The position numbers were made by a program, and so were the translations under genes. A stretch of DNA of 38,723 nt, taken from contig CACEFQ010000012.1 in NCBI GenBank assembly GCA_902558885.1, positions 1 to 38,723 on the forward strand, in the 5' to 3' direction. The DNA is from an uncultured SAR116 cluster alpha proteobacterium. GTDB taxonomy: Bacteria; Pseudomonadota; Alphaproteobacteria; Puniceispirillales; Marisalimonadaceae. Shown here piece after piece: positions 24,326 through 38,723 of this stretch (its first letter is position 1; each line of letters begins with the position of its first letter). The notes under the pieces were generated by a model. It was not told the DNA's origin. It ran no database searches and saw nothing but the letters and a program-made list of their open reading frames with translations.

Positions 24326-26563
24326 TTAATTACCTTCAATAATCTTCAAAACTTTAGGTGGCGACATCGGAAGACTGTACGAACGTTTTCCGATTGCTTG
24401 ATAAACTGCGTTTGATATAGCTGCCAAAGGTGGTACTAAGGGTACTTCACCTACACCTCTTACCCCTTGCGGATGTTTTGGGTTCGGAATTTCGATTAAT
24501 ACAGTGTCTAACATTGGTAAATCTGAACATACAGGCATTCTATAATCCAAAAATCCAGTATTATCCAAATGACCATCTTTATTGTAGATATATTCTTCGC
24601 TTAAAGCCCAGCCAATACCTTGAACACAACCACCATGAAGCTGACCTTCCACATAATCAGGATGAATGGCTTTACCAACGTCTTGTATAGATGTGTATCT
24701 TTTTACCCTTACTATACCAAGATCCATATCTACTTCAACGTCACAAATATGAGTTGCAAAGCCACCTTCAGCACCTTCAGTGTTTACCTGGTATCCAGCT
24801 CCAATTGGACCACCGGTCGCGGTGGCTTTTTCTGCTAATTCAGCCAATGTAAGTGGAGCGAATTTTCCTGCATTATCACCGGCAGGTCTAGCTTCACCAT
24901 TTTCCCACTCAATTGCTTCTTCGTCAATACCCCAAATTTTAGCTGCTCTTTGTTTTAATTGTTTAATTACTATTTTAGCAGATTCAGTTACAACCATTGC
25001 AGAAGCAAATAATACTCTACTTCCACCAGTAAGGTTGCTGTATCCAATTGTTGCTGTGTCACCAATTAAAACCGACACTTTATCATGATGAATACCTAAT
25101 AACTCAGCAGTTATATTGGCTATAGATGCTCTGGAACCTCCAATATCCGGATGTCCCGTTGTTACAACTACATTCCCGTCTTCAGTTATGTTTAACTGTG
25201 CGCTTGATTCTCCGCCAGCATTAAACCAAAAACCACTAGCTACGCCTCGACCTTGATGCTTGCCTAAAGGAGCTTTATAATGAGGATGGTTTATTGCTGC
25301 TTCAACTGTTTCCAAGTATCCCATTTTGGGATAAGTAGGGCCATGGACTGCTTGGGTTCCTTCTTTTGCAGCATTAATTTTTCTTAACTCCAAAGGACAC
25401 ATGTTAAGTTTTTCAGCAATTTCATCTAAAACACATTCGACTCCATATGCACCAATAGGAGCTCCAGGAGCTCTGTATGCAGCAACTTTACATCTGTTAG
25501 ATACAACATCATAACCAAAAGTATGGGCATTAGGAATATCATATGGTGCAAGAGAGCATCCTACTGCACCTCTAATAGGTGAACCGGGAAAAGCTCCTGC
25601 TTGTAAATAATATGTTCCTTGTGCTGCAACAATTTTTCCATCTTTAGTAACACCAATTTTTATTTTACTTTTAGATCCAGATGTAGGCCCGGAAGCTCTC
25701 ATTGTATCTTCTCTGTTCATTACTATTTTAACTGGACGACCTGTTTTTTGTGACAAGATAGTAGCTAATGGCTCTAAATAAACAATAGTTTTTCCTCCAA
25801 ATCCTCCACCAATTTCAGCCGGTATTGCTCTGATGTTACTCTGTGGTATACCAGTTAAATATGAGGTCATAGCTCTTACCATAAATTGACCCTGGCTTGA
25901 GCTCCATATAGTAGCTCTACCATCTGCTGTAACACTTACTAAACATGAATGTGTTTCTAAGTAACCTTGATGAACTGCTTCGGTTTTAAATTCTCTTTCT
26001 ATGATGACATCAGCCTCTGAAAAACCTTTATCTATATCACCTTTTTTATGCTCAAGAGTGCCAGCTATATTAGAGGGCTTTCCTTCAAATTGAATGTGAT
26101 TATGTAGAATAGGGGCGTCAGATTTTATTGCGTCGTCAATTTCAATGGCCCATGGTAAAACTTCGTACTCTACCTCTATTAATTCACATGCTTTTTCTGC
26201 TATTTCTTCAGTTGTTGCTGCAACTGCTGCAAGTGGATGGCCATGAAAAAGAACTTTGTCTCTAGCCATAACGTTTCTACACATCCATCTCATATCTTGG
26301 ATGCCAAGTATAACTGGCGTATCAATAGGAAAGTCGACGACATCTTTTGATGTGATTACTGCCTTAACCCCCTCTAATTCCTCAGCCTTTTTTGTATTAA
26401 TAGATAAAATTCTAGCATGTGGATGAGGGCTTCTTAATACATGACCCCAAATCATACCTGGCATTGTTGTGTCTGATGAATATTGAGCTCGACCAGTTAC
26501 CTTGTCTGCGCCATCTGGTCTAATAGTGTTTTTACCAATCCATTTGTTACTAATTTCATTCAT
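24326..26563 (-). CDS. molybdenum hydroxylase, large (molybdopterin-binding) subunit, xanthine dehydrogenase family
   Basis: Catalytic subunit that hydroxylates a substrate, probably an N-heterocycle or aldehyde, with water as oxygen donor. The 745 residues comprise an N-terminal Ald_Xan_dh domain (DKVTGRAQYSSDTTMPGMIWGHVLRSPHPHARI) and cofactor-binding regions: EIGGGFGGK, an active-site loop AYRAPGAPIGAYGVE, TGHPDIGGSR, and TGGSRV. The C-terminal GVRGVGEVPLVPP has the conserved catalytic Glu in GVGE. The active-site loop lacks the Cys of form I CO dehydrogenase (AYRCSFR), so a CO-oxidising enzyme is not supported. It overlaps the small-subunit stop by one base (TAATG). Local base composition is less AT-rich, as in other Gly/Ala-rich conserved genes here. 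The substrate cannot be named. Confidence 0.9.
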   Translation of the reverse strand: MNEISNKWIGKNTIRPDGADKVTGRAQYSSDTTMPGMIWGHVLRSPHPHARILSINTKKAEELEGVKAVITSKDVVDFPIDTPVILGIQDMRWMCRNVMARDKVLFHGHPLAAVAATTEEIAEKACELIEVEYEVLPWAIEIDDAIKSDAPILHNHIQFEGKPSNIAGTLEHKKGDIDKGFSEADVIIEREFKTEAVHQGYLETHSCLVSVTADGRATIWSSSQGQFMVRAMTSYLTGIPQSNIRAIPAEIGGGFGGKTIVYLEPLATILSQKTGRPVKIVMNREDTMRASGPTSGSKSKIKIGVTKDGKIVAAQGTYYLQAGAFPGSPIRGAVGCSLAPYDIPNAHTFGYDVVSNRCKVAAYRAPGAPIGAYGVECVLDEIAEKLNMCPLELRKINAAKEGTQAVHGPTYPKMGYLETVEAAINHPHYKAPLGKHQGRGVASGFWFNAGGESSAQLNITEDGNVVVTTGHPDIGGSRASIANITAELLGIHHDKVSVLIGDTATIGYSNLTGGSRVLFASAMVVTESAKIVIKQLKQRAAKIWGIDEEAIEWENGEARPAGDNAGKFAPLTLAELAEKATATGGPIGAGYQVNTEGAEGGFATHICDVEVDMDLGIVRVKRYTSIQDVGKAIHPDYVEGQLHGGCVQGIGWALSEEYIYNKDGHLDNTGFLDYRMPVCSDLPMLDTVLIEIPNPKHPQGVRGVGEVPLVPPLAAISNAVYQAIGKRSYSLPMSPPKVLKIIEGN

Positions 26564-27042
26564 TATGCACTCTCCTTCATTTCATCAGCGACTTCTAATA
26601 CAGCTTTAACAATCTTGTCATATCCGGTACATCTACATAAATTGCCAGCTAGCCAATATCGTACTTCAGTTTCTGTTGGTGAAGGGTTATGGTCTAATAA
26701 TGCTTTAGAAGCCATTAAAAAACCAGGTGTGCAAATACCACATTGAAGTGCAGCTTTTTCAAGAAATTTTTGTTGTAAGGCATGTAATTTACCACCTTCA
26801 GACATTCCTTCTATCGTTTCAATGCTGCTTCCTTCAGCTTCTGCGGCTAACATTAGGCAAGAACATACAAGTTCGCCATCTAATATAATGCTACATGAGC
26901 CACAATCACCTGAACCGCAGCTTTCTTTAGAGCCAGTTAGGTTTAATTGGTTTCTTAAAACATTTAACATAGTATCATGTGGTTCACATAAATACTCAAC
27001 GTTTTCATTATTAATTTTTGTTGAAATTTGAATTTTTGCCAT
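26563..27042 (-). CDS. molybdenum hydroxylase, small [2Fe-2S] subunit
   Basis: Electron-transfer subunit passing electrons from the molybdenum site to FAD. The 159 residues contain two iron-sulfur domains. The plant-ferredoxin-like N-terminal cluster uses SCGSGDCGSC and a later Cys in LVCSCL. The helical C-terminal cluster uses LQCGICTPGFL and GNLCRCTGYDKI. All eight expected cysteines are in their family contexts. GAGGA about 9 bases before the ATG serves as ribosome site. It sits 4 bases after the medium subunit and overlaps the large subunit, giving the medium-small-large order also used by cox-type operons. Confidence 0.94.
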   Translation of the reverse strand: MAKIQISTKINNENVEYLCEPHDTMLNVLRNQLNLTGSKESCGSGDCGSCSIILDGELVCSCLMLAAEAEGSSIETIEGMSEGGKLHALQQKFLEKAALQCGICTPGFLMASKALLDHNPSPTETEVRYWLAGNLCRCTGYDKIVKAVLEVADEMKESA

Positions 27043-27046
27043 TTCC

Positions 27047-27916
27047 TTAATTTCCTCTTATTCTATCAGCTGCTAAAAGAGTTGTTCTTTTAAATAAAAC
27101 TCCTGCAACTTTTGTTCTGTAATCAATAGTTCCTCTTTTGTCATCAATTGGATTACATGAATCTCTACATATCTTAGATACTTTTTCTAAAGTCCCTTCA
27201 TCAAGACTAGATCCCACCATTATATCTGTTGCCTCATTTATTAGTAATGGTTTTGGCGCAACAGCACCTAGTGAAACTCTTGCATTTGTGCAGACGCCAT
27301 TTTCAATTGAAATATTTACACCACATCCCACTACAGCAATATCCATCTCAGTTCTTGGTGTCATTCTCAAATAAGCATCAGCAGAATTATTATTTCTTTT
27401 AGGGAATTTAAGGGCAACTAGCATCTGTCCATTTTCCAAAATTGTTTTACCTGGTCCTAAATGAAAATTTTCAATGGGTATCTCTTTTCTTTCACCTGGC
27501 CCAGCTATCACGGCTTTACATCCAGCAGCAATTAATGCTGGTACACTATCACCAGCTGGTGAACCATTACATAGATTTCCTCCAAGAGAAGCTCTTCCTT
27601 GTATTTGTTCTGAACCGATAAGCCTAAATGCTTCTAAAACACCTGGCCAAAGTTTAGCAAATTTAGGGTTTCTATTAAGATTTGCACCAGAAACTGAGGC
27701 GCCTATTACAAATTCATTTTCAGAAATTTCTTGAATAGAATTTAATTCAACTATTTTTTTTATATCGATAACTAAATTAGGTTTTCTAATTCCACTTTTT
27801 ATTTGTACTAACAAGTCTGTTCCACCAGCCAAAAAACGTGCTGATCCATTAGCCTTAGCATGAGCATCAACAGCCTCATCAATAGTTTTTGCAGCTAGGT
27901 ATTGTGTATCTGACAT
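27047..27916 (-). CDS. molybdenum hydroxylase, medium FAD-binding subunit
   Basis: Binds FAD and hands electrons to the external acceptor. The product is 289 residues from the ATG at 27916, chosen because GGGAG lies 6 bases upstream; a TTG at 27928 would add only four residues. FAD-binding motifs are FLAGGTDLLVQIKSG, then IQGRASLGGNLCNGSPAGDSVPAL (the GGNxxxxSPxxD type), with a CO_deh_flav_C domain from about residue 180 (YLRMTPRTEMDIAVVGCGV...). It is the first gene of the leftward hydroxylase operon; 110 bases separate it from the divergent DMT gene. Confidence 0.92.
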   Translation of the reverse strand: MSDTQYLAAKTIDEAVDAHAKANGSARFLAGGTDLLVQIKSGIRKPNLVIDIKKIVELNSIQEISENEFVIGASVSGANLNRNPKFAKLWPGVLEAFRLIGSEQIQGRASLGGNLCNGSPAGDSVPALIAAGCKAVIAGPGERKEIPIENFHLGPGKTILENGQMLVALKFPKRNNNSADAYLRMTPRTEMDIAVVGCGVNISIENGVCTNARVSLGAVAPKPLLINEATDIMVGSSLDEGTLEKVSKICRDSCNPIDDKRGTIDYRTKVAGVLFKRTTLLAADRIRGN

Positions 27917-28026
27917 TTTATCTCCCAAAAATTAAATTTGAATATAAAGAAAAAGAATTATATTAAATAAATAACAATTTATTTTTTCTTATTCAATATA
28001 TTTAAATTTAAAAGCTCAATAATTTT

Positions 28027-28956
28027 ATGAATTTTTTAACAAATCCTCATTTTCTTTTAACACTAACGTCTATCTTTTGGGCATTTAACACTATAGCTGG
28101 AAGAGCTGCAGTTGGTGAGGTTTCCCCATTGTTAATAGTAAGTCTTAGGTGGCTATTTGTTTCAATTATATTATCATTTTTATGTAGAAACCAATTAAAA
28201 GAAATATGGACAATCTTAAGTCAAAGAATTAAGTGGCTTATCATAATGGGTTTGTTTGGTTTTACAGGTTTTAATTCTGCTTATTATATTGCCGCTCATG
28301 ACACTATTGTAATAAACCTTGGTTTAGTTCAAGGTACCATGCCAGCATTTATAATAATAATTGCATGGGTTTGGTTAAAAGATAAAATAAATTTAACCCA
28401 GTTTTTAGGAGTTTTAACAACTTTTATTGCTGTATTGATTGTTGTTAGTGCAGGAAATCTAACCATATTATTAAATTTAGAATTAAACAAAGGTGACATA
28501 GTAATGATTTTTGCATGTACTTTATACGCAGTGTATGCTGTTGGTTTAAGAAAAAAACCCCAAATAGGAGCTCTTCCTTTACTAACTTTTTTTGCATATG
28601 TAGCATTTGTAGGTTCGCTTCCTGGATTAATATATGAAACTTATTCAAATCAGCTAATTCTTCCTGGATTAAAAGGCTGTATTATCTTAGGTGTAATAAT
28701 TATTTTTCCGTCATTTTTAGCTCAAATCTTTTTTATGAAAGGTGTTGAAAAAATAGGACCTGCAAGGTCTGGGCTATATACAAATCTAGTACCTGTTTTT
28801 AGTTCAATATTAGCAGTGTTTTATTTAGGAGAAAGTTTTCAGTTATACCATTTCTTATCTTTATCTATGATATTTGCTGGAATTTACCTATTTGAAAATA
28901 AAAACAAAATTAATGATTTAATATTAAAAAGAGAATTAAATGATAGACATCAATAA
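28027..28956 (+). CDS. EamA/DMT-family transporter
   Basis: A 309-residue integral membrane protein with two EamA repeats. The first has SIFWAFNTIAGRAAVGEVSPLLIVSLRWLFVSII and YYIAAHDTIVINLGLVQGTMPAFIIIIAWVWLKDKI; the second has GDIVMIFACTLYAVYAVGLRKKP and KIGPARSGLYTNLVPVFSSILAVFYLGESFQ. The EKxGPxRSGxxxNLxPVFxxxL pattern is typical of EamA C-terminal repeats. It is divergent from the molybdenum hydroxylase operon. Its last 17 bases overlap the start of a small membrane-protein gene, suggesting co-translation. Substrate unknown. Confidence 0.9.
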   Translation: MNFLTNPHFLLTLTSIFWAFNTIAGRAAVGEVSPLLIVSLRWLFVSIILSFLCRNQLKEIWTILSQRIKWLIIMGLFGFTGFNSAYYIAAHDTIVINLGLVQGTMPAFIIIIAWVWLKDKINLTQFLGVLTTFIAVLIVVSAGNLTILLNLELNKGDIVMIFACTLYAVYAVGLRKKPQIGALPLLTFFAYVAFVGSLPGLIYETYSNQLILPGLKGCIILGVIIIFPSFLAQIFFMKGVEKIGPARSGLYTNLVPVFSSILAVFYLGESFQLYHFLSLSMIFAGIYLFENKNKINDLILKRELNDRHQ

Positions 28957-30665: not shown

Positions 30666-32009
30666 ATGAATAAATTTAATCTTAAGAAGGGTCTTAACAT
30701 TCCTGTCGCAGGAATTCCAAAACAAGTTATAGATGAAACTAAAATTCCTAACTCTGTTGCAATTCTTGGCCCTGAATATAATGGTCTTAAACCAAAAATG
30801 TTTGTCAACGTAGGTGATAAAGTGGAAAGAGGTTCACCTCTTTTTTGTCATAAGGATAACCCAGAGGTCCCTTTTGTTTCTCCCTGCAAAGGTTTTGTTA
30901 AAGAAATTAATAGGGGAGAAAAGAGAGCATTATTAAGTGTTGTCATTGATATTGATAATTTAGAAGACAAGGGTGCTTCAATAACAAAACTTCACTCTAA
31001 AGAAAAATCAAAAAAAGAATTTATAAAAAAGTGTTTGTTTGATAGTGGTTTATGGACTTCTTTTCTAACTAGACCTTATTCAAAAATTCCGGATAGTAAC
31101 TCTGAGCCAGCATCAATATTTATTACAGCAATGGATACCGAACCTCTAAGTCCTGATGCGGATATAATCATTAAGAATGATATTAAATCGTTTGAAGAAG
31201 GTGTAAAAAAAATATCGATATTAACTGAAGGTAAAGTTTTTATTTGTAAAAAAGAAAATAGTGACATTGATATTGATAATTTTGACACTTATGAATTTTC
31301 AGGACCACATCCTGCTGGTTTAAGTGGAACTCACATGCATTTTCTAGATCCACCAAATGCTAACAAAATAGTTTGGTCAATTGGTTATCAGGATGTAATT
31401 GCTATTGGTAAATTATTTTTAGATGGTTTCATTGATATTTATAGGACTATATCAATTGCAGGTCCTTTATCTCAAAATCCAAGATTAATAAAAACTATTG
31501 TTGGTGCATCTTTTGACGATATTCTTGAGGGTGAATACCCTAAATCAGAAAGTTGCAGAATAATATCGGGTTCAATACTTTCAGGATTTCATGCCACTGG
31601 AGATACGGCTTACCTAGGAAAATATTCTAGACAAATTACAATTATTAAAGAGGATAGAGATAAACATTTTTTTGGATGGATAAAACCACAACCCAATAAA
31701 TATTCGGTAATCCCTGTGCTTTTATCTGCGTTTAGTTTTTTCAAACTATTTAATCTTACTTCTAATTTAAATGGTGGAAGAAGAGCAATGGTTCCGACTG
31801 GGGTGTTTGAAACTTTAATGCCTCAGGACTTTTTGCCAACTCAACTTCTTAGGGCCTTGTTGGTTATGGATACTGACGTTGCTCAATCATTAGGAGCACT
31901 GGAACTTGACGAAGAAGACATAGCATTGTGTACTTTTGCTTGTCCTGCAAAATACGAATATGGAACTGCCTTAAGAGACAGTTTAACAAAAATTGAAAAA
32001 GAAGGTTAA
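30666..32009 (+). CDS. nqrA: Na+-translocating NADH:quinone reductase subunit A
   Basis: Peripheral cytoplasmic subunit of the Na+ pump, linked to quinone binding. The 447 residues match the family: KKGLNIPVAGIPKQ at the N-terminus, a biotinyl-lipoyl-like domain (FVNVGDKVERGSPLFCHKDNPEVPFVSPCKGFVKEINRGEKRALLSVVI, about 42-95), FSGPHPAGLSGTHMHFLDPP, and GVFETLMPQDFLPTQLLRALLVMDTDVAQSLGALELDEEDIALCTFACPAKYEYG near the C-terminus. AGAGG lies rather far (about 17 bases) from the ATG, so initiation may be weak. First gene of a complete nqrABCDEF set; the stop is 3 bases before the nqrB ATG. Confidence 0.97.
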   Translation: MNKFNLKKGLNIPVAGIPKQVIDETKIPNSVAILGPEYNGLKPKMFVNVGDKVERGSPLFCHKDNPEVPFVSPCKGFVKEINRGEKRALLSVVIDIDNLEDKGASITKLHSKEKSKKEFIKKCLFDSGLWTSFLTRPYSKIPDSNSEPASIFITAMDTEPLSPDADIIIKNDIKSFEEGVKKISILTEGKVFICKKENSDIDIDNFDTYEFSGPHPAGLSGTHMHFLDPPNANKIVWSIGYQDVIAIGKLFLDGFIDIYRTISIAGPLSQNPRLIKTIVGASFDDILEGEYPKSESCRIISGSILSGFHATGDTAYLGKYSRQITIIKEDRDKHFFGWIKPQPNKYSVIPVLLSAFSFFKLFNLTSNLNGGRRAMVPTGVFETLMPQDFLPTQLLRALLVMDTDVAQSLGALELDEEDIALCTFACPAKYEYGTALRDSLTKIEKEG

Positions 32010-32012
32010 TTG

Positions 32013-33221
32013 ATGTCACTACGAAACTATTTTAATTCCCTTGAACCTCACTTTGAAAAGGGTGGTAAATACGAAAAATATTATCCTATTTTTGAAATGG
32101 TTGAAACTATATTTTTTACAAGTAATACAGTTACAAAAGTCGCTCCTCATGCAAGAAGCTTTGTAGACATGAAAAGAGTTATGACCTATGTTGTTATTTC
32201 TACTATACCTTGTATACTATGGGCACTTTACAACACTGGTTTACAGACAAACAGTGCATTGGCCACTTTAGGTGTTGAAGTGCAATCAGGATGGCGAATA
32301 TCATTCCTTCAATTAACTGGTTTAGGTATCAATCCTGATAGTTTAATATCAAATGTTTTTCATGGATTATTATATTTTTTACCAATTTATCTCACCACCT
32401 TAATTGCTGGTGGTATATGTGAAGTTACCTTTGCTACGATCAGAGGCCATGAAGTTAACGAAGGCTTTTTAGTTTCTTCAATGTTATTTGCGCTTACTTT
32501 GCCAGCTTCTACTCCTTTGTGGCAAGTTGCTCTAGGAATTGCTTTTGGTGTAGTTGTTGGAAAAGAGGTATTTGGTGGAACTGGTAAAAACTTTTTAAAC
32601 CCTGCACTTACAGGACGTGCTTTTTTGTATTTTGCTTATCCTGCTTATATGTCAGGTGACTCAATCTGGACACCTGTAGACGGATATTCAGGTGCCACCT
32701 CTCTAGGAATAGCAGCTGCCGAAGGTTATGAAAGTTTAAGTAATTATGGAATTACATGGGCAGATGCTTTTTTGGGGACAATTCAAGGTTCTCTAGGTGA
32801 AACTTCTACTTTAGCATGTGTTATAGGATTGGTTTTCCTTCTTTTAACAAAAATTGCAAACTATAGAATGGTTGTTGGTTGTCTTGCTGGTATGATAGTA
32901 TTTTCTTCCTTTTTAAACTGGATTGGTTCAGATACAAACCCAATGTTTAGTATGCCATGGTACTGGCATCTTGTTATCGGTAGTTATGCGTTTGGGCTTG
33001 TTTTTATGGTTACTGAGCCAGTTTCAGGTAGCCATACCAATGTTGGTCGTTACATTTATGGAGCTTTAATAGGTTTTATGGTAGTAATGATAAGAGTATT
33101 AAATCCAGCATTTCCTGAGGGAATGATGCTTGCTATCTTATTTGGAAATATATTTGCACCATTGATTGATCATTTTGTTGTAATGGCAAATATTAAAAGA
33201 AGGGCAAAGTTTAGTGTCTAA
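32013..33221 (+). CDS. nqrB: Na+-NQR subunit B (covalent FMN, membrane)
   Basis: Main membrane subunit; it carries covalent FMN and riboflavin and forms part of the Na+ path. The product is 402 residues from the ATG at 32013, with GAAGG 7 bases upstream; a TTG one codon earlier is less likely. About ten hydrophobic segments follow an N-terminal amphipathic part. The flavinylation motif DGYSGAT has acceptor Thr229, made competent by ApbE encoded nearby. GTGKNFLNPALTGRAFLYFAYP and the C-terminal GSHTNVGRYIYGALIGFMVVMIRVLNPAFPEGMMLAILFGN are NqrB hallmarks. It overlaps nqrC by 8 bases. Confidence 0.97.
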   Translation: MSLRNYFNSLEPHFEKGGKYEKYYPIFEMVETIFFTSNTVTKVAPHARSFVDMKRVMTYVVISTIPCILWALYNTGLQTNSALATLGVEVQSGWRISFLQLTGLGINPDSLISNVFHGLLYFLPIYLTTLIAGGICEVTFATIRGHEVNEGFLVSSMLFALTLPASTPLWQVALGIAFGVVVGKEVFGGTGKNFLNPALTGRAFLYFAYPAYMSGDSIWTPVDGYSGATSLGIAAAEGYESLSNYGITWADAFLGTIQGSLGETSTLACVIGLVFLLLTKIANYRMVVGCLAGMIVFSSFLNWIGSDTNPMFSMPWYWHLVIGSYAFGLVFMVTEPVSGSHTNVGRYIYGALIGFMVVMIRVLNPAFPEGMMLAILFGNIFAPLIDHFVVMANIKRRAKFSV

Positions 33222-34005
33222 TTCTAATAATTTTTTTACTAGGTTTAGAGAATTGCCAGTTGATGGCATGACTAAAACTATAATTGTAGCTGTAAGCTTG
33301 TGCCTTGTTTGTTCAATGGTAGTTTCATTTGCTGCCGTAAATCTAAAAAATATTCAGGAGATTAATAAAGCAGTTGATAAACAAAAAAACATTTTGCAAG
33401 TGGCGGGGGTATATTATGAAGGTATTGATGTTAAAAAGACTTTTTTATCTTTTGAGCCAGTTGTTGTTGATTTAAATAAAGGTAAATTTACAAATAAATT
33501 TGATCCTATTACTTTTGATGACAAGGCTGCTGCTCAAGATCCAGAATTAAGTATATCTTTAAAAGATGATCCAGCTTCAATTGGAAGAAGGACAAACTTT
33601 GCAACTGTTTATCTTCTTAAAAAAGAAGATGGCTCCTTAGATAAGATTATACTTCCAATTCATGGATATGGATTATGGTCAACTCTATATGGGTTTATAG
33701 CGCTAGAAAAAAATGGTAATGATATATTTGGGCTTCAATTTTATCAACATGCAGAAACTCCAGGTTTAGGTGCAGAAGTTGATAATCCTAAATGGAAAGC
33801 GCAATGGAAAGGAAAGAAGCTTAATAATGATAATGGTGAACTGATGATTACAGTTGCCAAAACTCAAAAAAATAAAGAATATCATATTGATGCATTAGCT
33901 GGAGCTACTCTTACTTCAAACGGAGTTGATAATTTGGTAAAATTTTGGATGGGTGATTCTGGTTTTAAAAAGTTTCTAAAAAATTTACAAAATGGAGCTG
34001 CTTAA
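33214..34005 (+). CDS. nqrC: Na+-NQR subunit C (covalent FMN)
   Basis: Single-span subunit with a large periplasmic FMN domain. The 263 residues begin at GTG 33214, with AAGGG about 9 bases upstream. A transmembrane helix occupies about 22-43. The periplasmic domain contains [37 protein letters not shown], and the flavin attachment motif [18 protein letters not shown], with Thr232 as acceptor. The residue before GAT is usually Ser or Thr (SGAT); here it is Ala. The stop overlaps the nqrD ATG by one base. Confidence 0.96.
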
Positions 34006-34658
34006 TGGCTCAAACTAGGAAACAATTACTCACTGATCCTTTAGTAGATAATAACCCTATAACACTTCAAGTTTTAGGAATTTGTTCTGCTTTAGCAGTT
34101 ACCTCTTCTTTAAACGTTGCATTTGTTATGTCATTAGCTGTGATAGCTGTTTGTGGATTTTCATCTCTATTTATCTCCTTTTTAAGGCATTATATCCCAA
34201 ATTCTATAAGAATTATTGTCCAGATGGTGATTATTGCTTCTTTAGTAATATTGGTTGATCAAATAATAAAAGCTTATGCTTACGAGATTTCTAAAACATT
34301 ATCAGTCTTTGTAGGTTTAATTATCACAAATTGTATTGTTATGGGAAGAGCAGAAGCTTTTGCAATGAAAAACAAACCATTTGATTCATTCATTGATGGT
34401 GTTGGCAATGGTCTTGGTTATAGTCTATTATTGATGTGTGTCGGTGTGATACGTGAGCTTTTTGGTTCTGGCTCATTATTTGGGGTAATGATTTTTGAAC
34501 CAGTGAGCAATGGTGGGTGGTACGTTCCCAACGGTTTATTACTTCTTCCTCCCTCAGCTTTTTTTATTATAGGGTTTATCATTTGGGGTGTGAGAACATG
34601 GAAAAAGTCCCAGGTTGAAGCCCGTGATTACAAAATTCAAACACTAGAGGAACATTAA
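34005..34658 (+). CDS. nqrD: Na+-NQR subunit D (membrane)
   Basis: Six-helix membrane subunit that with NqrE holds the intramembrane iron/2Fe-2S centre. The 217 residues start [31 protein letters not shown], with Cys27 in LGICSAL. The second ligand, Cys110, is in [20 protein letters not shown], the family signature. Later blocks [21 protein letters not shown] and GSGSLFG are normal. It is related to NqrE by inverted topology and to RnfE, but the operon makes it NqrD. TAATG overlaps on both sides (nqrC and nqrE) suggest coupled translation. Confidence 0.97.
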
Positions 34659-35266
34659 TGGAAGGCTTAATTTCATTAGCTGTAAAAGCGATTTTTGTAG
34701 AAAATTTAGCTCTTTCCTTTTTTTTAGGAATGTGTACTTTTATCGCTGTATCAAAAAAAATATCAACTGCTATCGGCTTAGGTATTTCAGTAATGATAGT
34801 TCAATCTATTACTGTTCCTGCAAATAATATTATACTTTCATATTTATTAAAACCAGGTGCATTAGCTTGGGCAGGATTTCCAGACGTTGACTTAACTTTT
34901 TTAGGTCTTATTTCTTATATAGGTGTTATAGCTGCATTGGTTCAAATTTTAGAAATGATATTAGACAAATATTTTCCGCCATTATATAATGCACTCGGTA
35001 TATTTCTTCCCTTAATCACCGTGAATTGTGCAATTTTAGGAGGTTCATTATTTATGGTAGAAAGAGACTATAATTTTTCAGAAGCAACAACTTATGGGAT
35101 AGCATCAGGATTTGGCTGGGCCTTGGCAATTGCTACTATGGCTGGTGTAAGAGAGAAGCTTAAGTATAGTGATATACCTGATGGCTTGCAAGGTCTTGGA
35201 ATCACTTTTATAACTGCTGGGCTTATGGCAATGGCTTTTATGTGTTTCTCTGGCGTTAAACTTTAA
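34658..35266 (+). CDS. nqrE: Na+-NQR subunit E (membrane)
   Basis: Partner of NqrD in the membrane. It has 202 residues and about six helices. The two iron-ligand cysteines are present: Cys26 in [15 protein letters not shown] and Cys124 in [73 protein letters not shown] is nearly the consensus C-terminal half. The stop lies 11 bases before the nqrF ATG. Confidence 0.97.
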
Positions 35267-35277
35267 AGGATTATGAA

Positions 35278-36498
35278 ATGGATACATTCGTACTTGGTAT
35301 AACTCTTTTTACAATGATAGTACTTACTTTAGTTTCAATCATCATATTTGCTAGAAGTAAGTTAGTTTCGTCAGGTGATGTAAATATTACTATTAATGGT
35401 GAAAAAACTGTTTCTGTTCCTGCTGGTGGTAAATTGTTACAAACACTTGCAGCAGAAAAGCTTTTTGTTCCCTCAGCTTGTGGAGGAGGCGGGACCTGTG
35501 CTCAATGTCGAGTAAAAGTACACTCAGGAGGTGGAGCTATTTTACCTACTGAAGAGAGCCATATAAACAAAAGAGAAGCGTCTTGTGGTGATCGCTTATC
35601 ATGTCAAGTTGCGGTGAAGCAAGATATGGAAATCGAAGTTCCGGAAGAAGTTTTTGGTGTTAAGAAATGGAGATGTAAAGTTAGAAGTAATGATAACGTT
35701 GCTACTTTTATAAAAGAATTAATACTAGAACTTCCAGAAGGAGAAGATGTTAACTTCAGAGCCGGAGGATATATACAAATCGAAGCTCCAAGTTATTCGT
35801 TATCCTATAAAGATTTTAATATAGAAAAAGAATATCATGAAGATTGGGATAGATTTAAAATATGGGATTTTAACTCCGAAAGTAATGAGCCAATAGAGAG
35901 AGCTTACTCTATGGCAAATTGTCCTGATGAAAAAGGAATTGTCATGCTTAATGTTAGAATAGCATCACCCCCACCTGGTTCTACAGGAATTCCTGCTGGA
36001 AAGATGTCTTCATATATTTTCAACTTAAGACCTGGTGATGAGGTGGTAATTTCTGGTCCTTTTGGTGAGTTTTTTGCTAGAGAAACAGATAAAGAAATGG
36101 TTTTTGTAGGTGGTGGTGCAGGAATGGCACCCATGAGGAGTCATCTTTTTGATCAATTTAATAGAATTAAAACTAAACGTAAGGTCACTTTTTGGTATGG
36201 AGCAAGATCTAAAAAAGAAATGTTTTATGTTGATGACTTTAATAAGTTAGCAAAAGAGAATTCTAATTTCAGTTGGCATGTAGCACTTTCTGATGCAATG
36301 CCTGAAGATAAATGGGATGGCCTTACAGGATTTATTCACAACGTTTTATATGAACAATATCTTAAGAATCATCCTGCACCAGAAGATTGCGAATATTATA
36401 TGTGTGGTCCACCTATGATGAACCAATCTGTTATAAACATGCTCCTTGATCTAGGGGTTGATAGAGAAGATATAATGCTTGATGATTTTGGTGGATAA
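35278..36498 (+). CDS. nqrF: Na+-NQR subunit F (NADH-oxidising, [2Fe-2S] and FAD)
   Basis: Entry point for NADH electrons. The 406 residues run as an N-terminal transmembrane helix (about 4-25), then a ferredoxin domain with Cys68, Cys74, Cys77 and Cys109 in [12 protein letters not shown]...RLSCQ. FAD-binding RAYSMANCP (208-216) follows, then an NADH-binding [16 protein letters not shown] and the C-terminal [11 protein letters not shown]...LLDDFGG. It is full length with the usual cluster ligands. AAAGGA before the ATG is a good ribosome site. Last subunit of the operon; no strong terminator follows. Confidence 0.98.
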
Positions 36499-36594
36499 AC
36501 TTAATTCTTAATTCATCAAATTATTAAAATGATTTTTTTAGTTACATTCATATCTTTATATTATATTTTAAAATAAAGTATAAAGACGTGAAAC

Positions 36595-38286
36595 ATGGAA
36601 ATATTATTATTTGTTTTCCCATTATTAAATTTTTTATTATTTCAGTTTGGTTATCAAAAAATAAGATCTGAAATTTTATATGCAATTAATATTTTTTTAT
36701 GCGGTCTTTCTTTTCTTTTAAGCTTGTACATTTTTATAAAAATTTTAAATTTAGATAAAGATTTACCATTATTTTTCTATACTTTGATTAAATTAGAAAA
36801 TTTATTTATAGACTGGTCATTAAGATTAGACTTATTTGTGTCTGGCTTAATAGCTTTGGTAACGCTTATAGGATTATTAATATCAGTATACTCAATAAAT
36901 TTATCAAAAAACCATTTAATTAATCATGAAATAAATAGTTTTTTATCGCTTTCAATTTTTGGTGTACTAGTTCTAATATCTTCAAACAATTTAATGCAGT
37001 TTTTTTTAGGATGGTATTTAATAATTTTATCTTCTTATTTGATCTCTAATATTTCAGACAATAAGGTTGATAATAGTAATATTTTTTTTGAAAACAGAGT
37101 TTCTGATCTCTGTTTTTTTTTAAGTTTGTATTTTATTTACACATTTTCAAACTCAATAAATTTTGATGTTATTTTTAAAAGTTTTCAAATTATTGAAAGT
37201 AAAATAACTATTTTAAATCAAACTTTTTGTCGTTTTGACTTAGTAATTTTTATTTTATTTTTTTCTTTTTTATTAAGATTTCGTCAATTCTATATCTCAG
37301 ATTCCAGGTATGATTTATTAAACTTTAATTCAAGTTTGTATTCACTTAGTTTATATGGTCTGTATTTTCCTGTTGGACTTTATTTTGTTTTACGTTTTTT
37401 AACTTTAACTCACATAAGTTTAGATTATTTAAATCTTATATTGATATTAGGTTCTATTTTATCTTTCATTTTTTTAGTTCTATTAATTCGATCATATAAT
37501 TTGAATAAATTGTTTTTATATATTGCGTCTGCTCAATTTGGTATTTTATTGATTGGTGTTGGTTTAAAGTTATATAATGCAGCAGTTTTTCATTTTTTTA
37601 CATCAACATTATCTCTGTTAATTCTGTCTTTGAGTTTTGGAATTATTTCATACAAATTAAATAATGAACAAGATATTAGGAAAATGGGTTCTCTTATTAT
37701 TAAATGTCCTTTCATGTTTTTGTTTATTTTAATTGGCTTTATTTCTTTGTTGGGAATACCATATTTTTCTGGATTTTATTCTAATCAACTATTCTTATCT
37801 CAATTATCATCAATTAATAAAGTAAGTTATTTTTTAATATTTAGCTTCTGTTTTTGTTATACTTTTACAATTAGCTATATTTCATTTAAGATCATTCTAG
37901 TTGTATTTTTAGGTCAAAATAATTGTAATATACATTTATATAATAAGATAGAAGAAGGATCATATTATTTAAAATTTATTCTATTTGTTTTATCTATTTT
38001 TATAATTTTTTCAGGTTGGTATTTTAATAATTTATTTTCAGGTAATTTTGGTGAAAACATATGGCGTTTGGTATTAGTGGGTAGTACTGAATTTTCTTTA
38101 AATCATAAACTTGATAATAATCAATGGCTTTTTGAAACTAGAAATATTGTTTGTTACATTGGAATTTTTTTAGCTTTTTTAAACTATCTTATTATTCCAA
38201 AATTAGGAGATAATTTAAAACTCAAAAATAATAAATTATTTAAATATTATCTAAAATCCTTTACTTCATATGATTTTAATAGATGA
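36595..38286 (+). CDS. divergent NuoL-like membrane protein lacking proton-channel residues
   Basis: A 563-residue, very hydrophobic protein with about 14 predicted helices that aligns by eye with complex I NuoL. WSLRLDLFVSGLIALVTLIG matches the DGLS helix, SNNLMQFFLGWYLIILSSYLI the [23 protein letters not shown] helix, NRVSDLCFFLSLYFIYTF the NRVGD helix, YNAAVFHFFTSTLSLL the HLMTHAFFKALLFL helix, and IPYFSGFYSNQ the LVTAGFFSKD turn. Residues needed for pumping in NuoL are changed: Glu144 to Tyr141, Lys229 to Arg228, Lys342 to Leu341, Lys399 to Asn397, and Asp400 to Gln398. The ORF is intact, so it is probably expressed. It follows nqrF by 96 bases and overlaps birA by 17. An Mrp or DabB antiporter-type protein is possible but less likely given the birA neighbour. 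Confidence 0.75.
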   Translation: MEILLFVFPLLNFLLFQFGYQKIRSEILYAINIFLCGLSFLLSLYIFIKILNLDKDLPLFFYTLIKLENLFIDWSLRLDLFVSGLIALVTLIGLLISVYSINLSKNHLINHEINSFLSLSIFGVLVLISSNNLMQFFLGWYLIILSSYLISNISDNKVDNSNIFFENRVSDLCFFLSLYFIYTFSNSINFDVIFKSFQIIESKITILNQTFCRFDLVIFILFFSFLLRFRQFYISDSRYDLLNFNSSLYSLSLYGLYFPVGLYFVLRFLTLTHISLDYLNLILILGSILSFIFLVLLIRSYNLNKLFLYIASAQFGILLIGVGLKLYNAAVFHFFTSTLSLLILSLSFGIISYKLNNEQDIRKMGSLIIKCPFMFLFILIGFISLLGIPYFSGFYSNQLFLSQLSSINKVSYFLIFSFCFCYTFTISYISFKIILVVFLGQNNCNIHLYNKIEEGSYYLKFILFVLSIFIIFSGWYFNNLFSGNFGENIWRLVLVGSTEFSLNHKLDNNQWLFETRNIVCYIGIFLAFLNYLIIPKLGDNLKLKNNKLFKYYLKSFTSYDFNR

Positions 38287-38723
38287 AAGCTCTAATGGTA
38301 AACTCTTGACATATTATGATCTAAATATTTTGCAAACTTGTTCTAGTACAAATGATATAGCTATAAATAACGCAAAAAAAGGATTACCAGAAGGCAGTTC
38401 ATATTTATCCTACCTACAGACAAATGGACGAGGTAGAAATAACAATCAATGGGATTCAATGAAAGGGAACCTTTTTTTATCAACTATTTTTAGACCAACT
38501 ACAAGCAAAATAAATTGGCATCAATTATCATTGATAATTGGTTTATCAATTTTAGAAACTCTAATTACTTTGGGTGTAGATAAAAAGAAAATTGTATTAA
38601 AGTGGCCAAATGATGTACTTGTTCATAAAAGTAAAATCTCTGGTGTTTTATTAGAATCTTTTGATGATTTTATTGTTGCTGGAATTGGATTAAATGTTTT
38701 AAAAAAACCACAAAACGAAATAA
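38270..38723 (+). CDS. birA: biotin--[acetyl-CoA-carboxylase] ligase (3' end outside window)
   Basis: Biotinylates the carrier domain of biotin enzymes through biotinyl-AMP. The ATG at 38270 lies within the end of the NuoL-like gene (17-base overlap), and the frame is open to the window edge for 151 codons. Motifs are TCSSTNDIA (substrate site), TNGRGRNNNQW (the GRGR biotinyl-AMP loop), GNLFLSTIFRP, LKWPNDV, and KISGVLLES with the conserved catalytic Lys, then IVAGIGLNV. There is no N-terminal helix-turn-helix, so it is a group I, non-regulatory enzyme. Roughly 80 to 90 C-terminal residues are missing. In alphaproteobacteria birA commonly follows nuoN. Confidence 0.93.
   Translation, partial: MILIDESSNGKLLTYYDLNILQTCSSTNDIAINNAKKGLPEGSSYLSYLQTNGRGRNNNQWDSMKGNLFLSTIFRPTTSKINWHQLSLIIGLSILETLITLGVDKKKIVLKWPNDVLVHKSKISGVLLESFDDFIVAGIGLNVLKKPQNEI

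Follow-up and report, generated by a model that had tools for sequence, protein, structure and literature searches.

Exchange of the main entry enzyme of respiration alters the ion that powers a cell. The Na+-translocating NADH:quinone oxidoreductase (Na+-NQR) oxidizes NADH, hands the electrons on to quinone and exports Na+. The closest described case concerns SAR116 bacteria, in a study whose authors we take to be Roda-Garcia et al. In the parts of that paper covered here, the complex I (nuo) genes are replaced by nqr in the SAR116 genera LGC2-C and LGC2-D, with nuoL immediately beside the new genes; the closest nqr is found in HTCC2181 (67.52%), and nuo/nqr exchanges are cited for marine Flavobacteria, Marinimicrobia and Methylophilaceae (PMC8547437, 2021). 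The central observation, that nqr stands in for nuo in these genera and adjoins a nuoL, has thus been published before. The accessible parts of two other papers (PMC11813361 and PMC4014512) do not report the SAR116 replacement. Here we analyse the nqr locus of an uncultured SAR116 cluster alphaproteobacterium on contig 12 (CACEFQ010000012.1, 38,723 nucleotides, forward strand; hereafter the window) of a 1.65 Mb assembly that is 76% complete (GCA_902558885.1). We add evidence from the flanking genes, a nuoN remnant in another bacterium, a genome carrying nqr next to nuo, and the residue losses and selection of NL, the NuoL-like protein encoded between nqrF and birA. These are traces of how the swap may have happened, in ocean bacteria with small genomes. 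A partial literature survey, not covering the supplement of PMC8547437 (Fig. S4), turned up no earlier description of the conserved flanks around the swap, the stump of nuoN, an nqr cassette next to nuo within the class, or the residues that NL has lost.

The nqr genes of the window occupy a slot that holds complex I genes in related bacteria. Loci fetched from other families of the order have nuoN followed by birA and coaX (10/10). In the nearest nuo-bearing genera, g11 (two loci) and g13 (six loci), eamA lies directly before nuoA and birA after nuoN in all eight; in both g11 loci and in some of the rest, nuoN and birA come from two successive stretches of the sequence, and the nuoN of one g13 locus, L146, is a nuoM–nuoN fusion. 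In the nqr-bearing group, eamA precedes the apbE–nqrM head of the cassette in 20 of the 21 loci that reach that far, and birA lies downstream, with coaX next where the locus extends to it. Across the swap, the eamA products are 60–62% identical (four sister loci compared). A search of nine loci gave no second eamA match (another frame of at least 200 residues, E≤1e-3). The slot between eamA and birA therefore contains nuoA–N in two sister genera and apbE–nqrM/nqrABCDEF in two further genera, the window's own and a neighbour. Two further features of these loci were seen. In L146 (2325–5250; genome G074), the first 84 residues of NuoM are fused in frame to NuoN from residue 232, between an intact nuoL and birA, which reflects either an internal deletion inside the nuo operon or an assembly collapse. 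Just outside eamA, at 24326–27928 of the window, lie genes for a xanthine dehydrogenase-type molybdenum hydroxylase; such genes adjoin eamA in the nqr-bearing group and were unmatched next to it in the sister loci that bear nuo.

The two enzymes also hardly coincide across the order. We surveyed 136 genomes, most of them incomplete single-cell or metagenome assemblies, and found nqrF (threshold E≤1e-80) in 28 and nuoD in 75, both together only in G029, which is contaminated. Within the high-quality subset (43 genomes with completeness ≥90% and contamination ≤5%), nqrF was found in 6 and nuoD in 35. Since both flanks, eamA and birA, are common to the nuo-bearing sisters, and nqrF and nuoD occur together only in one contaminated genome, sequence comparison strongly supports an exchange of complex I for Na+-NQR, in place, in one SAR116 lineage. 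A preliminary description of the window had proposed exactly this replacement in situ and had suggested comparing the birA neighbourhood in sister lineages with and without nqr. That comparison bears the proposal out, setting nuoN–birA against nqrF–(NL)–birA with eamA at the other end.

A complete nuo operon elsewhere in the same genome had been named as evidence that would speak against replacement. Neither nuoD nor nuoH was found in the window's genome at its present completeness, the remaining nuo subunits not having been searched individually. Three other proteins with the Proton_antipo_M domain are encoded on contig 4, in a row with genes for MrpB, MrpE, MrpF and MrpG, and hence belong to an Mrp cluster and not to complex I. 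A second site for complex I in this genome was ruled out on these grounds. The incompleteness of the assembly would still allow for a complex I that is present and was missed, an explanation we regard as extremely unlikely: nuoD was unmatched in 36 of the 37 members of the genus searched, the exception being contaminated, and the high-quality counts for nqrF and nuoD given above argue against it as well.

Two other candidate states were examined and dropped. nqrF is missing from 14 of the 40 listed members of the genus. In 11 of them coaX is missing as well, and in the remaining three a contig ends here, so that the region is unassembled in all 14 and a third state within the genus, with neither enzyme, is unsupported. 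G029 might have been a true intermediate with both enzymes. It is listed at 5% contamination; its nqr contig holds a genus-type copy of birA–coaX–rnj, and its nuo contigs bear a second, divergent set, with 30–41% identity to the genus and order sequences, on which basis the candidate was rejected. By this second set, contigs 96 and 68 of G029 (loci L086 and L087) were recognized as contamination from another low-G+C alphaproteobacterium.

The cassette itself is complete. All six subunit genes lie in one operon-like row, each above its NCBIfam cut-off, and both maturation factors of Na+-NQR, ApbE and NqrM, exceed their Pfam cut-offs and are encoded on the opposite strand (Table 1). Open frames and profile matches agree with the preliminary description, which had nqrABCDEF, a NuoL-like gene and birA in a row and apbE–nqrM divergent at the head. 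The order nqrF–NL–birA recurs in 15 further named assemblies, so the arrangement is no assembly accident. Inspection of the translations by eye revealed flavin attachment motifs in NqrB and NqrC, and 2Fe–2S and flavin motifs in NqrF; we take DGYSGAT (NqrB) and AGATLT (NqrC) to be the attachment sites and count RAYSMAN among the NqrF motifs. A search with NqrA gave 32 named loci. The nearest come from single cells and metagenome-assembled genomes of SAR116 or related alphaproteobacteria, including SCGC AAA536-G10 and AAA536-K22; four are more distant, namely a gammaproteobacterium, metagenome-assembled genomes of a Bacteriovoracaceae and a Neomarinimicrobiota member, and L120, discussed below. 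A scan for promoters and terminators around nqr and NL found sites no more numerous than in shuffled sequences. Relative to L090 (genome G002), synonymous divergence over 30666–38722 of the window is ~1.0 in nqrA and nqrB and ~0.3 in nqrF, NL and birA, and this unevenness is suggestive of a recombination breakpoint within the nqr genes. Another alphaproteobacterial genome, G252, has three NqrF-like places, on contigs 122, 102 and 63.

Table 1. Features of the nqr locus and its flanks, in window coordinates; the last base of the window is the last base of the contig.
Feature	Position	Strand	Evidence and remarks
eamA-like transporter gene	28027..28956	+	PF00892; upstream flank, common to nuo-bearing sister genera
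nqrM, Na+-NQR maturation factor, 70 aa	29150..29362	-	PF04400 29.6 bits, cut-off 22
apbE, FMN (flavin mononucleotide) transferase, 345 aa	29405..30442	-	PF02424 272 bits; NF007774 249.5 bits, below cut-off 498
nqrA	30666..32009	+	NF003759 and TIGR01936 above cut-off
nqrB	32010..33221	+	NF003756 and TIGR01937 above cut-off; DGYSGAT in translation
nqrC	33214..34005	+	NF003749 and TIGR01938 above cut-off; AGATLT in translation
nqrD	34005..34658	+	NF006777 and TIGR01939 above cut-off
nqrE	34658..35266	+	TIGR01940 above cut-off
nqrF	35278..36498	+	TIGR01941 678.5 bits, above cut-off
NL, NuoL-like gene, 563 aa	36595..38286	+	TIGR01974 207.5 bits, cut-off 407.5
birA, 5' part, cut by contig end	38270..38722	+	TIGR00121 above cut-off; true start possibly further downstream; downstream flank, adjoins nuoN in nuo-bearing relatives

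A remnant of nuo at an nqr site was found outside the order. In AH-324-F23 (L120), nqrM–apbE and nqrA–F are followed by a broken nuoN directly before birA–coaX–rnj; the stump corresponds to NuoN residues ~223–481 and carries an in-frame stop and a frame shift. The only candidate for such a remnant in the window's genus is NL, which qualifies by position, the tree described below being undecided. nuoD was not found in the AH-324-F23 genome, the completeness of which is not stated. In the Nqr tree AH-324-F23 is sister to the SAR116 group (100/100). Its birA–coaX–rnj falls outside the order in a tree of 22 rows (19 from the order and 3 others), a grouping with the SAR116 group being rejected by the approximately unbiased test (p-AU 1e-5). 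AH-324-F23 as a SAR116 member sharing a single swap was rejected on this tree. Sister cassettes at the same place, next to flanks that are not sisters, would also be expected if the cassette had arrived by homologous recombination of a block with nuo flanks from another alphaproteobacterium, instead of by insertion followed by deletion. The flanks, however, follow the host: eamA and birA–coaX–rnj of the SAR116 group are of SAR116 type, and clpX–lon lies upstream of the cassette in AH-324-F23. Such a block would also need an endpoint within the slot. We consider such a block transfer unlikely.

An arrangement resembling an intermediate, with the cassette beside an intact nuo operon, is seen in G392, an alphaproteobacterium of another family listed as 100% complete. 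Here the cassette lies 857 bp upstream of nuoA; all 14 genes nuoA–N are open frames and are followed by birA–coaX–rnj.

NL is related to NuoL and lacks most of its conserved charged residues. Its best model is NuoL (TIGR01974), matched over residues 3–557 below the curated cut-off; every one of the 14 proteins in alignment A2, among them that of the window, matches this model, and scores against Mrp models are far lower. The predicted fold (predicted local distance difference test score 65, moderate confidence) is antiporter-like, with NuoL/ND5 as top Foldseek matches (E 4e-17, TM-score ~0.74 by query). NL thus goes with NuoL by profile and fold and not with Mrp; a tree placing it in Mrp or DabB is what the preliminary description had named as a case against its reading. 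No DabA/MpsB partner adjoins NL, its neighbours being nqrF and birA; DabA was searched for nowhere else.

We compared 16 full-length NL proteins with 42 NuoL proteins, leaving the partial copies in G003, G009, G014, G019 and G023 out of the NL statistics. Columns were called conserved at ≥95% of NuoL and kept at ≥90% of NL; residue roles in the proton path, transmembrane helix (TM) numbers and names of C-terminal helices are those that we presume to apply. NL keeps 43 of the 204 conserved NuoL columns and has lost 93 in all 16 proteins. None of the six invariant lysine and eight invariant histidine columns of NuoL is kept. The Glu of TM5 is replaced by Tyr, Gln or His, and the Lys of TM7 by Arg, in 16 of 16; the His of TM8, the Lys of TM11 and the Asp of TM12 are likewise lost throughout, and the Lys of TM12 is lost in 11. 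Some charged residues are partly retained (L149 numbering: K309 in 12/16, H338 in 9/16, K402 in 5/16 and E363 in 15/16), and D79, R172 and D175 are kept in every NL. The C-terminal arm, comprising the lateral helix and the last TM helix, is missing: three conserved NuoL columns near this end (D588, D593 and H621 of L149) face gaps in all 16. Judged by its residues, NL is not an ordinary NuoL.

NL is nonetheless maintained as a protein. The ratio of non-synonymous to synonymous substitution (dN/dS) is 0.19–0.31 in 11 of 11 pairs, chosen from 120 possible ones, compared with 0.01–0.11 for nqrA, nqrB, nqrC and nqrF and 0.14–0.26 for birA. Were NL a functionless relic, open only because its loss of function is recent, a dN/dS above that of the nqr genes and its absence from two lineages that keep nqr would be accounted for. 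Against this, the ratio lies near that of birA, the full-length frames are open in 16 of 16 genomes (559–573 residues) despite divergence to 37% identity, and NL has invariant positions of its own, 27 of 77 being rare in NuoL. We therefore regard a dying relic as very unlikely. Lacking the C-terminal arm and most of the acidic and basic residues along the proton path, NL should not pump protons in the classical manner. Given the continuing selection on its protein sequence, NL probably now serves a different role in the membrane. NL is thus most likely a repurposed membrane protein, so far as its sequence can tell. That this role is structural or regulatory and lies near Nqr is a tentative suggestion, to which we give somewhat less than even odds. 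The contigs of the five related genomes with partial copies break inside the NL gene, perhaps due to high variability of the gene in the population.

Where NL came from is less clear-cut than what it resembles. NL is full length in 16 genomes and partial at contig ends in 5 more, and among the matches listed for 385 genomes of the class no closer relative appears, the best others being ordinary NuoL proteins at most 29% identical. We built a NuoL tree from 10 NL and 39 NuoL rows, out of 81 gathered with duplicates, three near-copies from g13 being dropped. The NL branch is very long, and none of seven groupings with different NuoL sets is rejected (p-AU 0.33–0.52). Compared with the free tree, joining NL with the NuoL of its own family improves the fit by 0.25 log units; joining it with f2, f3 or f4, or with two other rows of the class, changes the fit by at most 1.1 log units, whereas f1 plus f3 costs 3.4 and the whole order 8.1. 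The tree being uninformative, NL as a leftover of the old operon rests on position. The earlier claim that one nuo-derived gene was left behind is upheld with that qualification: profile, fold and position agree with it, and the seven undecided groupings speak neither for nor against descent from the local gene.

We favour the following explanation, which as a whole we hold to be about 80% probable. The nqr cassette would have arrived by horizontal transfer and settled beside the nuo operon, as in present-day G392, and nuo would subsequently have been deleted, as in AH-324-F23 with its broken nuoN before birA. By its position, NL would most likely be the remainder of the local nuoL, and would probably have been recruited for another membrane role, perhaps beside Nqr, while being dispensable in cells that keep nqr. 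Going by the enzyme family, NADH oxidation would export Na+ in these cells, and the separate Mrp cluster on contig 4 could couple the Na+ and H+ gradients by exchanging Na+ for H+.

Several observations weigh against this explanation. L132 (G064), the sole exception among the 21 loci, has other genes instead of eamA upstream of the cassette. By subtraction, 34 of the 136 order genomes, mostly incomplete, have neither nqrF nor nuoD, and 2 of the 43 high-quality genomes are also without both. The nqr regions of 11 further nqr-bearing genomes from the class were fetched, and only G392 has nuo adjoining; in the remaining 10, neither a nuo operon nor birA lies beside nqr within the 6.8–20 kb read. 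As to NL, its branch is so long that phylogeny favours no grouping, descent from the local nuoL included. NL is absent from G027 and G030 and from the two genomes of the sister genus g12 (G064 and G065). These four keep nqr without it, which speaks against a partner role. Two changes of NL state are needed on the best flank tree, whose starred branches force just one of them and in which the row of the window is only 17% filled; NL at the time of the swap would then require two losses, or else NL arrived later. Finally, if NL is a relic, then nuoM and nuoN, which lie between nuoL and birA, must have gone separately.

These last points bear on the alternative that NL is a latecomer, a diverged copy of NuoL that transfer or duplication placed between nqrF and birA after the swap, in the ancestor of the window's genus. 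Late entry would explain why the nqrF–birA gap is only 55–99 bp in the genomes without NL, why the tree does not join NL with the family's NuoL, and how NL came to adjoin birA when nuoM and nuoN separated nuoL from birA in the ancestor. Against this, the best-scoring matches listed, apart from the protein itself, are ordinary NuoL proteins; NL also occurs in G029, which branches deeply within the group, and it sits in the former place of the nuo genes. We judge late entry to be quite unlikely. Because nuoL was present before the swap, NL at the start with two subsequent losses is the simplest reading, a later gain being the alternative.

States before the swap, side by side, with a stump and after the swap, found at one locus, would make the order of events readable from genomes. 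A wider proposal is that nqr took over the nuo locus repeatedly in Alphaproteobacteria by one route, from the head of nuo (G392) to deletion (AH-324-F23 and SAR116), one SAR116 subunit being rebuilt as a partner of Na+-NQR that does not pump protons; we consider this rather doubtful at present. NL is a natural experiment, in which an antiporter-like subunit is selected after losing its complex and most residues of its proton path, and could reveal other uses of the fold.

The locus compares with known systems as follows. According to work cited in PMC8547437, marine Flavobacteria, Marinimicrobia and Methylophilaceae have likewise exchanged complex I for Na+-NQR. The replacement in LGC2-C and LGC2-D described there is nearer still: it concerns the same clade by family name (AAA536-G10), the same swap and the same extra nuoL beside nqr, and the window very probably belongs to that clade. 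The accessible text of that paper calls the extra gene nuoL and does not discuss its residues, and neither 'birA' nor 'synteny' occurs in it. Mrp antiporter subunits belong to the same superfamily as NL (Proton_antipo_M), but NL scores far lower on Mrp than on NuoL models, and the genome has a separate Mrp cluster. The best profile and fold match of NL is NuoL/ND5 (Paracoccus 8qby_L and relatives). Unlike these, NL is without most of the invariant charged residues and without the C-terminal arm, and resides in a genome in which nuoD and nuoH, the two subunits sought, were not found.

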